A stretch of DNA of 64,000 bases from Thermoanaerobaculum sp. (GTDB taxonomy: Bacteria > Acidobacteriota > Thermoanaerobaculia > Multivoradales > UBA5704), in NCBI GenBank assembly GCA_021154885.1, contig JAJKHS010000053.1, positions 1 through 64,000 of the forward strand. Direction: 5' to 3'. Positions 14,170-23,153 of this stretch are shown here, one piece after another. The stretch's first letter is position 1, and every line of letters starts with the position of its first letter. The position numbers and the translations under genes are program-made. Under the pieces are notes generated by a model that did no database searches, was not told where the DNA came from, and saw only the letters and a list, made by a program, of their open reading frames with translations.

Positions 14170-17100
14170 ACCTCTGATCTCTGAAGCTCTGGACGGGGGG
14201 AGTCCAGAGGGGGGCTTGCCCCCCTTTGGCGGGTGGCTTTGGTAGAGCGGCTGATTTTGGCCTCGATGCCTTGGCTCTACTTTGTCCGATTGCCTCATCG
14301 AGCCGTAGGCCCTCATCACCCCGGCCCTCTTCTCCCAGCCTCCCCCCCGACCGCCGGGAGAAGAGGGAGTGGTTAGCCCGAAGAAAAAAGGAAAAGCGAA
14401 GCGGTCTTGGCCCTCTCTCTCCCGGCGGCCGGGGGGGAGGCTGGGAGAGAGAGGGTTGGGAGAGTGAGGGGTCCGCCCCGAAGGGGCAGGGGCAACGCCG
14501 GGAAGCATCACCACCTCCAGCCCCGCCGCCGCGACCTGCTTTCGGAAGGCGGCCACGTCCTCCGCGTAGAAGCGGTCGAGGTCGACGAGGTATACGTCCA
14601 GCGCCTTCTCCGCCCTCTCGATATACGCGAATGTGGTGGGGGTGGGCGGGTCCATGGAGGTCTGGAGGGTGTCGACCGCGAACCAGACCTTCTCCAGGAC
14701 GAGGTCGTCGCGCCAGACTCCGATCGGAGTCTCGGGGGCGACCCGGAAGCGCCGCTCCAGGGCGTTGATTTTCGTCTGAAGGCCGGCGGCGGCCTGGAGG
14801 AGGGCGGGGCGCAGGGCGGGAGGAGCGTCGGTGCGGGCCCTGGCGGCGGCGGTCTCGACGTCGGCGCGGGTCCTGAGCAGGCGCTCGACGACGGTGATGG
14901 CGGCGTCCTGGAGGCGGCCGGCGCGGAGGACGGCGGCCCAGCGGGCCTGCCAGTCGGCCTCGGTGTTGTGGGAGCGCGGGTCGGGGAGGACGCGGACGGT
15001 CCGCTTCGCCTCCGCGTCGCCCAGTTTCACGGTGACGGTATAGATACCCGGCGGCACCTCCGGCCCCGGCGGGTTCGGCGGCCGGGGCGGCTGGCCGGCA
15101 CCGCGGGGGGAGAGCTTGAAGGCGTTGCGCTCCAGTCCCCACGGCAAGCGGTTGATCCCGGGATCGAGCGGCCAGCGGTAGTTGCGCAGGAGCTGGCCGG
15201 CGGCGTCCTCGACGTGAATCTCGGCCATCCCGCCCTGGACGGCCGAGACGGTGAGGAGCGCACCGTAGGGCCGGTTCTCGCCGTGGAAGACGTCGGCGCC
15301 GTGGCCGTGCGTGCCGGAGCGGCTCCAGTGCTGACGCGCGTCCGGGATCGTGAAGAGGTGGAGAGGCTCGGCGAGGATGGCCGGCGAGAGATCGCGCAAC
15401 GGCCGGACGTCGTCCAGGATGTAGAGGCCGCGGCCGAAGGTGGCGATCACCAGGTCGTGATCACGCGGGTGGACGACGAGGTCGGTCACCGCCACGGCAG
15501 GGAGGCCATGGCGCCAGGGCAGCCAGCGCCGGCCCCCGTCAAGCGATAACCAGAGGCCGCGGGAGGTGCCGAGGAAGAGGAGGTCGCGATCCACCGGGTC
15601 CTGCTCCAGGCAGAGCGCGTGACCGCGGAGGTCCGGAGTCGCGAGGCTCTTCCAGGTGGCGCCGAAGTCGTCGGTGCGCAGGACGTACGGTGTCTCGTCC
15701 CCCCGCCGGTGGTCGTCCAGGATCACGAAGGCCGAGGCGGGATCGAAGCGCGAGGGCCGGATCTGGGCCACCCAGGCGTGGGCCGGCACTCCGTGGACCT
15801 TCAGGAGAGGGGCCTCGACGCTCGTCCACGCGCCGCCGCCGTCGCGGGTCACGTGGAGCCGGCCGTCGTCCGTCCCCACCCAGAGGAGGCCCGGCTTGAG
15901 GGGCGAGGGGGCAATGGCCGTGATGGTGGTGAAGTTTTCGGCGCCGGCCGCGTCCGGCGTCAGGCCGCCGCTCTCGGCCTGGTGCTGCCAGTCGGGGTTG
16001 TTCGTCGTCAGGTCCGGGCTGATCACCGTCCAGGTGTCCCCCTGGTCGGTCGACTTGTGCACGAGCTGGCTGCCGAGGTAGAGGGTGCCCGGCGCGAAGG
16101 GGTCGAGGGCCAGGCCGGCGACGAAGTTGAAACGCAGGCGGGTGTCTGCGGGTGCGGGGGCGTTCGCAGGCTCGGGCGGCGGGATCTCCTTGATCTCCCC
16201 GGTCTTCAGGTCCCAGCGGCGCAGGCTGCCGGCCTGGGAGAGGGCGTAGCCATGATCCGGATCGGCCGGATCGGGCAGCGTCGCCGAGCCGTCGTCCAGG
16301 CCCACGAACGTCCAGTCGTGGTCCTGGATCCCCCCGGCTTCCCAGGCGTCGCTCGGCCCCCGCCAGGCGCCGTTGTCCTGGAACCCGCCGTAGATGTTGA
16401 ACGGCACCGCCTGATCGACCGCCACGCGGTAGAGCTGGCCGAGGGGGAGGTTGGGGAGGAAGACGGCCGTCCGCCCGCGGTCGCGGCTCACGGCCACGCC
16501 GCCGTCCGTGGCCAGCACCAGATGGCGCGGATCGGCGGGATCGATCCAGATCGCGTGCAGGTCGGGATGGACGTTCTGGCCCCCGAGGAGGCCGCGGAAG
16601 GTGCGGCCGTTGTCGTCCGAGACGTGGAGCGACATGTCGAGGTTGTAGACGCGGTTCGGCCACTGCGGATCGATCGCCAGGCCGGGGAAGAAGAAGGGGC
16701 GCAGGTGGAGGTTGGGGCTGGCGTTGACCGTGCGGAAGCTGGCGCCGCCGTCGTCCGAGCGCAGCAGGGCGCTGGTGGCCGCCTCGACCATGGCATAGAC
16801 CACCTCGGGATTGGAGCGGGAGACGGCGAGCTTGATCCGCCCGAGATCGCCTTCGGGCAGGCCGTCGTCCGCCGTGCGCCGCGTCCAGGTGCGGCCGCCG
16901 TCGATCGAGACGTAAAGCCCGGAGCCCGGCCCGCCCGAACGGAAGAACCAGGGCCAGCGCCGGTGCTCCCACATCGCGGCGTAGAGCTTGCCGGGATTCC
17001 TGGGGTCGATCACCAGATCGGCGGCGCCGGTCTTCGCATCCACGTAGAGGATCTTCGCCCAGGTCCTGCCGCCGTCCTCCGTCTTGAAGACTCCGCGCTC

Positions 17101-17692: not shown

Positions 17693-17784
17693 CCCTGGGA
17701 GCGCCGGCGTCCCGCCGGCCACTTACTTCTGCTTCTTCTTGAAAAGAGGAGGAAGAGGCCGGCGAGACGCCGGCGCTCCCAGGG
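17693..17784. repeat. Palindrome with CCCTGGGAGCGCCGGCGTC arms
   Basis: Arms of 28 bases at 17693-17720 and 17757-17784 are complementary except for one position, with a purine/pyrimidine-rich loop that itself can partly pair. It lies between the divergent VPS10 and DinB genes, directly upstream of the latter. A half copy occurs at 29293-29313. The word is a common interspersed repeat in several environmental phyla. Confidence 0.75.
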
Positions 17785-17804: not shown

Positions 17805-18287
17805 ATGAACCTGATCGCAGACCTCCAGCGCATCGTCCCTCGCGACGTCGACACCCTCCGGCGGGAGATCGAGCTCTATCCGGATGACGAATCGGTCTGG
17901 CGGGAGCTCCCCGGTCTCCCCAATTCGGGGGGCACGCTGGTCCTCCACCTGGTGGGCAACCTGCGCCACTACTTCGGCGCCGTGCTGGGCGGGAGCGGCT
18001 ACGTCCGCGTTCGTCCGGCCGAGTTCTCGACGCGGGGCGTTCCCCGGCACGAGCTGATTCAGCTCATCGCCGCCGCCCATGCCGAGGTCACGGACGCGCT
18101 GGCCCACCTGGACCCGGCCCGGCTGGAAGAGACCTATCCGGAGCCCATGCGCGGCCAGTCCTTTTCGACCGGCTTGTTCTTCCTCCACCTGGCCGTGCAC
18201 CTCACCTACCACCTGGGCCAGCTCGACTATCACCGCCGGGTCGTCACCGGCGACGCCGCCTCCGCCGGAGCCCTCCCACCGCCCTGA
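17805..18287 (+). CDS. DinB superfamily protein (DUF1572/DUF664-like)
   Basis: The 160-residue product has a DinB four-helix-bundle pattern with conserved His in VLHLVGNLRHYFGAV and HLAVHLTYHLGQLDYHRR, which in this superfamily bind a divalent metal. DinB-like proteins include bacillithiol/mycothiol-dependent transferases, but the role of this branch is not known. The ATG start follows directly after a palindromic repeat. It is the first of two plus-strand genes before the LpxC fusion. Confidence 0.85.
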   Translation: MNLIADLQRIVPRDVDTLRREIELYPDDESVWRELPGLPNSGGTLVLHLVGNLRHYFGAVLGGSGYVRVRPAEFSTRGVPRHELIQLIAAAHAEVTDALAHLDPARLEETYPEPMRGQSFSTGLFFLHLAVHLTYHLGQLDYHRRVVTGDAASAGALPPP

Positions 18288-18348: not shown

Positions 18349-19656
18349 ATGCCTGAGCTGATCCTGATCGTGGACGACGAGCCGGGGATCCTCTCCACCC
18401 TGGGAGGGATCCTCTCCGACGAGGGCTATGCGACCCTCGCCACCACCAGCGGCGAAGAGGCCCTGGCCCTCTACGGGGAGAGGCGCCCCGACGTCGTCTT
18501 CCTCGACATCTGGCTCGCCGACCGCGACGGCCTCGAGACCCTGCAGGCCCTGCGCGAGGCGGACCCCACGGCGGCCGTCGTCATGATGTCGGGCCATGGG
18601 ACGACCTCCACCGCCGTCAAGGCGATCAAGATGGGAGCCTTCGACTACCTGGAGAAGCCCCTCTCCTACAAGCGGACGGTGGACGCCGCGGCCGGGGCCC
18701 TGGCCTGGAAGCGTTCCCTGGGGGCCGGGGCCGCCGAGTGGCTCTCCGACCCGCCGCGCGACCGCCGCGCCCAGCGCGCCAATCATCCGGAGGGCGAGCG
18801 CCGGTTCGAAGCCGCTCCGCCCCTGCCGCTGCTCGCCGATACCGGCCGGCGGCAGCGGACCATCAGTCATTCGACCGTGGTCTACGGCCTCGGCCTCCAC
18901 TCGGGCCAGCGCACGGGTATGGTCCTCCAGCCCCTGCCGGAGAACAGTGGCATCCATTTCGTCACCCTGCCCACGGGGATCGAGATCCCGGCCCACGTCC
19001 GCGCCGTGGCGGAAACCGACTACGCCACCACGCTCTCCGGCGAGGGCGAGAGCATCCGCACCGTCGAGCACCTCCTCTCGGCGCTCCACGCCTATGGCGT
19101 GGGCAACCTGCTCATCAAGGTGCACGGCGAGATCCCGGTGCTCGACGGCTCGGCGCTGGAGTTCTGCAAGATCCTCGAAGATGTCGGCGTGGCCGAGCAG
19201 GACGAGCCGCAGCGGGAGGTGGTCGTCGACCGCCGCTACGAAGTGGGGTCGGGGGACAAGGTGCTGGCTATCGAGCCGGCGGACCGCTTCTCGGTCTCCT
19301 ATCTCCTGCGCTATCCGCCGCCGGTGGGGGAGCAATCGTACGATTTCACCCTCACCTCGGCCGAGGACTACAAGCGGGAGATCGCCCCGGCCCGCACCTT
19401 CGGCTTCATGAAGGACCTGAAGATGCTCAACGAGCTGGGCCTCGGCTCCGGCGGCCGGCTCGACAACTTCATCCTCGTCGGGGAAGACGAAGTGATCAAC
19501 ACCGAGCTACGCTTCCCCGACGAGTTCGTCCGCCACAAAATCCTCGACATCATCGGCGACCTCTACCTCCTGGGCTACCCCATTCGCGGCAAGGTCACCG
19601 CCCGGCTGACCGGTCATCGCCACAACATCGCGTTGTTGCGGCAGATCGTGGGGTGA
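18349..19656 (+). CDS. lpxC: Response-regulator receiver domain fused to LpxC (UDP-3-O-acyl-GlcNAc deacetylase)
   Basis: Residues 1-120 are a CheY-like receiver (LILIVDDEPG, phosphoacceptor Asp53 in VVFLDIWLADRDG, MMSGHGTTSTA, Lys103 in YLEKP). After a 40-residue linker, residues 166-435 are a full LpxC, the zinc enzyme of the committed lipid A step. Visible LpxC residues are GLGLHSG, Glu240-His241 in TVEHLLSAL, EIPVLDGSALEF, His396 and Asp400 in DEFVRHKILDIIGD, and the general acid/base His423 in GHRHN; all expected zinc and catalytic positions are present. The frame is open without interruption and both halves are well conserved, so the fusion is not a sequencing artefact by appearance. It suggests control of lipid A synthesis by phosphorylation. 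No histidine kinase is nearby. Confidence 0.93.
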   Translation: MPELILIVDDEPGILSTLGGILSDEGYATLATTSGEEALALYGERRPDVVFLDIWLADRDGLETLQALREADPTAAVVMMSGHGTTSTAVKAIKMGAFDYLEKPLSYKRTVDAAAGALAWKRSLGAGAAEWLSDPPRDRRAQRANHPEGERRFEAAPPLPLLADTGRRQRTISHSTVVYGLGLHSGQRTGMVLQPLPENSGIHFVTLPTGIEIPAHVRAVAETDYATTLSGEGESIRTVEHLLSALHAYGVGNLLIKVHGEIPVLDGSALEFCKILEDVGVAEQDEPQREVVVDRRYEVGSGDKVLAIEPADRFSVSYLLRYPPPVGEQSYDFTLTSAEDYKREIAPARTFGFMKDLKMLNELGLGSGGRLDNFILVGEDEVINTELRFPDEFVRHKILDIIGDLYLLGYPIRGKVTARLTGHRHNIALLRQIVG

Positions 19657-23091: not shown

Positions 23092-23128
23092 TCCCTCTTC
23101 TCCCGGGATATGGCTGGGAGAAGAGGGA
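23092..23128 (-). terminator. Hairpin downstream of the RiPP precursor gene
   Basis: A 13-base perfect arm pair (TCCCTCTTCTCCC and its complement, 23092-23104 and 23116-23128) starts 26 bases after the stop of the precursor gene. It belongs to the CTCTTCTCCC palindrome family seen elsewhere, so it may be a terminator, a repeat, or both. Confidence 0.5.
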
Positions 23129-23153
23129 CGGGGTGAGGAGGGGCCGGCCCAGC

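Follow-up and report, generated by a model that had tools for sequence, protein, structure and literature searches.

LpxC carries out the committed step of lipid A synthesis and is an antibiotic target. Of its modes of control proteolysis is the best known, and elsewhere it is controlled at the level of transcription. Response regulators with enzymatic output include the CheB, GGDEF/EAL and PP2C types, in which a receiver is likewise joined to a catalytic domain, but those outputs make or remove signals or modify other proteins, whereas the output considered here is a committed biosynthetic enzyme. The protein in question, REC-LpxC, is encoded at positions 18349–19656 (+ strand) of a 64,000-nucleotide stretch of Thermoanaerobaculum sp. 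DNA (contig JAJKHS010000053.1 of assembly GCA_021154885.1, hereafter the window) and carries a two-component receiver (REC) and an LpxC deacetylase in one chain. The same pathway step is under two-component control in Rhodobacter and Caulobacter, where NtrYX lowers the lpxC transcript, indirectly in Rhodobacter (PMC7240162, PMC12444477), and in Desulfovibrio vulgaris, where lpxC is the sole target of the response regulator DVU2934; in S. fumaroxidans, lpxC lies beside the operon orthologous to that of DVU2934 (PMC3333781). These systems, which belong in part to the same NtrYX family, act on transcription through DNA-binding regulators, whereas REC-LpxC unites receiver and enzyme in a single chain. 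Genetic evidence further identifies PlrP, a DUF4390 protein, as a third, periplasmic member of NtrYX-type systems, holding the phosphatase activity of the NtrY-type kinase in check (PMC13001219). No description of REC-LpxC was found in the open-access literature searched.

The gene is a single uninterrupted open reading frame of 435 amino acids, from ATG to TGA, and the preliminary description was right to read the two domains as one frame; no frameshift or stop lies between them. The CheY-like receiver (18361–18684, residues 5–112; Pfam PF00072 Response_reg, E = 2e-28) is followed by a linker (18703–18843, residues 119–165) and the LpxC domain (18853–19650, residues 169–434; Pfam E = 1e-87), which scores 294 bits over positions 1–267 of the 268 of PF03331; the protein also reaches 263.8 bits against the TIGR00325 lpxC equivalog model (cut-off 187.25). 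The receiver has the acidic pair D9/D10, the phospho-acceptor D53 (codon at 18505–18507) and the switch residues S81 and K103 (codon at 18655–18657), all five conserved in 36 of 36 fused receivers, and the enzyme has a complete zinc and catalytic set (zinc ligands H241, H396 and D400; catalytic residues E240, T350, D404 and H423) together with F351 and K397. An alignment of 33 fusions drawn from several phyla shows no variation at any of these residues, including the seven first named from the window alone (D53, K103, E240, H241, H396, D400 and H423). The C-terminal end lies 14 residues from the glycine of the GH(423) motif. The protein matches LpxC (PF03331/TIGR00325) over the whole domain, in its fold and in its zinc-binding and catalytic residues, and it differs by the N-terminal receiver, the flexible linker and its place in a distinct LpxC clade. 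It resembles NtrX in receiver sequence, specificity residues and LDxW signature, and its genome holds NtrY and DUF4390, but Pfam finds in it neither an AAA+ sigma-54 interaction domain nor a Fis-type helix-turn-helix (HTH); its output is an enzyme, and because the Fis-type HTH is absent it is not filed as NtrX. LpxC-FabZ (NF009667) is also a natural LpxC fusion but joins two enzymes, and the window protein scores 200 bits against that model, far under its cut-off of 465.

In an AlphaFold2 model (mean pLDDT 86.9) both domains are predicted with confidence, and the linker between them has pLDDT below 50 at residues 131–150, which are predicted to be disordered. The LpxC half superposes on the solved structures from P. 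aeruginosa, E. coli and A. aeolicus (Foldseek TM-score, target-normalised, 0.81–0.94). Between close species dN/dS is low in both domains, at 0.08–0.22 for the receiver and 0.09–0.14 for LpxC, and 0.3–0.9 in the linker, indicating that selection holds both domains while the tether is free to drift.

A search of other genomes, as proposed in the preliminary description, recovered the fusion from dozens of assemblies, among them the single-contig Binatia chromosomes OY282432 and OX638375, although most of the genomes used are metagenome-assembled genomes. Full-length REC-LpxC is present in 33 copies among 59 related genomes, in seven families of the window's order, while families f4 and f8 have stand-alone LpxC; a search of genome contigs gave about 30 loci. 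Among 247 Acidobacteriota genomes the fusion occurs only in the window's order, in G297 (family f16) and in family f39 (G142 and G179), and beyond that phylum it is found in Binatia (L027, L028 and L043), SZUA-149 (L029) and UBA2409 (L030). In Desulfomonile-like loci (L031–L035, for example L032:6747–8840) a receiver, a degenerate sigma-54-type AAA+ domain and LpxC share one frame. The AAA+ domain lacks GAFTGA and is therefore probably not a sigma-54 activator, and the Fis HTH is missing; this protein amounts to an NtrX with LpxC in place of the DNA-binding domain. In a tree of 61 LpxCs a 100/100 branch separates all 44 fused sequences from the 17 stand-alone ones, which include those of unfused members of the window's order. 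The simplest reading is that REC-LpxC arose once and was then either transferred or deeply inherited. An origin by simple deletion between neighbouring genes is unsupported: the ancestral order is lpxC...ntrX, against receiver-then-LpxC in the fusion, and the fused LpxC is not sister to the resident stand-alone LpxC. For these two reasons transfer or a divergent paralog is the likelier source.

Three side observations concern this distribution. The fusion at L005, a record labelled Myxococcales, groups within the acidobacterial clade and reflects either transfer or a misbinned contig. A contig labelled Bdellovibrionales (L050:2558–2944) ends just past a receiver that is sister to the SZUA-149 receiver and that is perhaps part of a truncated REC-LpxC. 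G007, G012, G052 and family f51 have no LpxC match, or none above the threshold used; these Acidobacteriota genomes would have either assembly gaps or no canonical lipid A.

In the window's genome the fusion is the only PF03331 match, and lpxA and lpxK are kept elsewhere; if lipid A is made, the fused enzyme must therefore supply the LpxC step. The congeners G001 and G002 have a stand-alone lpxC between rnhA and smpB (L169 and L170/L178), whereas at the corresponding locus of the window's genome (L177) rnhA adjoins smpB with no lpxC remnant, the stand-alone gene having been lost there. The preliminary description had raised the possibility of a separate canonical lpxC elsewhere; this does not hold for the window's genome but does for G001, G002 and G297, and the proposition that fused lineages never have a stand-alone lpxC is accordingly rejected. 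The genomes with two LpxCs would be intermediates or use the two copies differently.

The receiver of REC-LpxC appears to descend from NtrX or a very close relative. Of the NCBIfam regulator models, NtrX (NF051870) matches the window receiver best, at 104 bits, followed by AtoC (83) and NtrC (71). When compared with the NtrX of unfused relatives and with 20 paralogous NtrC-family receivers from fused genomes, the fused receiver has an NtrX as its nearest match in all 36 cases. At the six positions matching the OmpR specificity residues 15, 16, 22 and 106–108 (set taken from PMC2991266; numbering and mapping are ours), fused receivers are 71% identical to NtrX versus 41% to the paralogs, a difference that random six-position sets equal in 1.4% of draws. 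Shared ancestry makes all these comparisons phylogenetically non-independent. The commonest string at these positions in fused receivers, GIGPLS, is found among NtrX too, and the usual string in the paralogs is AIMPLQ or SIMPLQ.

Gene neighbourhoods, read with a simple gene caller of our own, BLAST and Pfam spot checks (with position used to assign the DUF4390 gene wherever the BLAST query did not pick it up), point to the orphan membrane kinase NtrY as the most likely cognate kinase. The order smpB-lpxC-DUF4390-ntrY-ntrX is seen in unfused Acidobacteriota (L110, L111, L113, L114, L125 and L126), and lpxC-DUF4390-ntrY-ntrX lie in a row in Rokubacteria (L041 and L042). In the twelve fused genomes in which the downstream side of this locus is visible (L097–L099, L101–L108 and L115), DUF4390-ntrY stands without a neighbouring lpxC or ntrX; it adjoins smpB in all but L097, and yqeY or selB, which lie 3' of ntrX in several unfused genomes, are often retained. 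The same state is found in G007 and G005, though these assemblies are without the fusion. The NtrY of the window's genome (G000:C69:57228–59483) has intact catalytic motifs and is encoded downstream of a gene of DUF4390/PlrP type with a predicted periplasmic product; orphan NtrYs keep the H-box AHEIKNPL, and nearly all keep the GxGLGL motif. In Binatia, ntrY immediately precedes REC-LpxC, across a gap of about 40–90 bases depending on the start codon, and in Desulfomonile G064–G066 and family f39 ntrY is present without an adjacent ntrX. Adjacency is an imperfect marker, since the unfused genus g14 of f8 has an NtrX unlinked from ntrY. Families f4 and f8 have full NtrX orthologs (at least 61% to the query); the only fused genomes of the order to have one are G016, G023 and G029 of family f6, where ntrX (L121, L122 and L123) is unlinked from ntrY and the receivers are altered at specificity and signature positions, with DDS or DDV for DDE and the LDxW signature lost; this suggests that the f6 NtrX is insulated from NtrY or has a new partner. 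G297 has both states, an intact lpxC-DUF4390-ntrY-ntrX cluster and the fusion. The proposition that NtrX is always lost in fused genomes is thus rejected.

On the precedents of PlrP, of NtrYX acting on lpxC and of DVU2934 acting on lpxC, we propose phosphotransfer from DUF4390/NtrY to REC-LpxC, acting on the activity or the lifetime of LpxC. REC-LpxC would be a response regulator with the committed lipid A enzyme as its output domain. It is probable that NtrY, together with DUF4390/PlrP, phosphorylates Asp53 of REC-LpxC and so sets lipid A synthesis post-translationally. We also lean towards a broader statement, in which NtrY reads the envelope through DUF4390 and phosphorylates LpxC itself, NtrX having been discarded while its receiver survives, and in which this switch recurs in several phyla. 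An envelope signal read by DUF4390/NtrY would alter the phosphorylation of Asp53, and the phosphorylated receiver would alter LpxC activity through the flexible linker, by re-docking or by receiver dimerisation, or would alter the lifetime of LpxC. The ancestral route, in which NtrY acted through NtrX on gene expression and lpxC belonged to their gene cluster, would in this way have become one from NtrY to REC-LpxC. Direct phospho-control, as put forward in the preliminary description, is thus favoured by the architecture, which is ancient and strongly constrained, the conservation, the NtrX-type receiver, the orphan NtrY, the loss of ntrX and lpxC from the cluster and the Binatia gene pair; the phosphotransfer, its sign and its effect on LpxC activity we infer from these comparisons of sequence. 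That phosphorylation restrains LpxC is a guess only just better than even, made on the weak analogy of NtrYX lowering lpxC expression in alphaproteobacteria.

Several observations weigh against this proposal. The second LpxC of G001 and G002 is one, and the specificity signal is weaker when the non-acidobacterial fusions are taken alone, being equalled by 10% of random sets. Deep branches of the receiver tree are poorly resolved, as the number of columns is too small for the fused receivers to be rooted with confidence. No NtrY was found in Desulfomonile G067 and G068 or in SZUA-149, genomes that are possibly incomplete. In Acidobacteriota, the window's genome included, ntrY and the fusion are unlinked, with no partner gene seen beside the fusion at the loci inspected, and a full NtrX persists alongside the fusion in four genomes (G016, G023, G029 and G297).

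The last two of these observations, along with the many NtrC-family regulators of fused genomes, would also fit a receiver phosphorylated by one or more other kinases or by acetyl phosphate, with the orphan NtrY serving another regulator. We consider this unlikely, given the ntrY-REC-LpxC gene pair of Binatia, the NtrX-type specificity residues of the fused receiver and the orphan ntrY in most of the fusion lineages examined.

Next in order is the possibility that phosphorylation sets the lifetime or localisation of the protein and not its catalytic turnover, the receiver serving as a phospho-dependent recruitment tag to a protease or to the membrane, so that proteolysis would be signal-gated in place of allostery. 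The E. coli enzyme is controlled by proteolysis (PMC12444477), the linker between the two domains is flexible and evolves fast, and the receiver could replace the C-terminal extension that the early end of the protein leaves missing. The LpxC of other taxa, Neisseria for one, is also without this C-terminal degron (PMC12444477), however, so this absence says little, and no match to the LapB zinc-ribbon model was found in the window's genome, the small size of that model making it a weak test. On balance we regard this alternative, too, as doubtful.

It is improbable that the receiver goes unphosphorylated and serves constitutively as a structural or dimerisation module. Other families do include receivers that are not phosphorylated, but such atypical receivers usually lose phospho-site residues, whereas here all five are invariant across several phyla and dN/dS in the receiver is as low as in the enzyme. 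That the fusion is a gene-model or assembly artefact, or inactive, is very improbable in spite of the largely metagenome-assembled sources, as artefact and frameshift are rejected by conservation and dN/dS, the fusion recurs in dozens of independent assemblies and in single-contig Binatia chromosomes, its active site is complete, and in the window's genome it is the sole LpxC, with the stand-alone site cleanly empty.

Elsewhere in the window, the upstream neighbour of REC-LpxC is a DinB-superfamily protein (17805–18287, + strand; Pfam PF12867); there is no evidence for a functional link between the two, and the neighbours of the fusion vary among the genomes inspected. Inverted repeats were noted at 14291–14488, at 14310–14340 with 23112–23142, and at 17693–17784; they include a 31-nucleotide arm common to two distant places and a 38-nucleotide hairpin of 89% near 17.7 kb, and appear to be dispersed intergenic repeats.

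A receiver on LpxC would amount to direct phospho-control of outer-membrane synthesis. The stages of the change appear to be preserved in the genomes compared, as separate genes, as genomes with both copies, as the REC-AAA+-LpxC form and as a sole fusion with an orphan kinase, and REC-LpxC would then illustrate clearly how a gene-regulatory circuit can collapse into a post-translational one. The DUF4390/NtrY sensor would at the same time gain an output open to in vitro assay.
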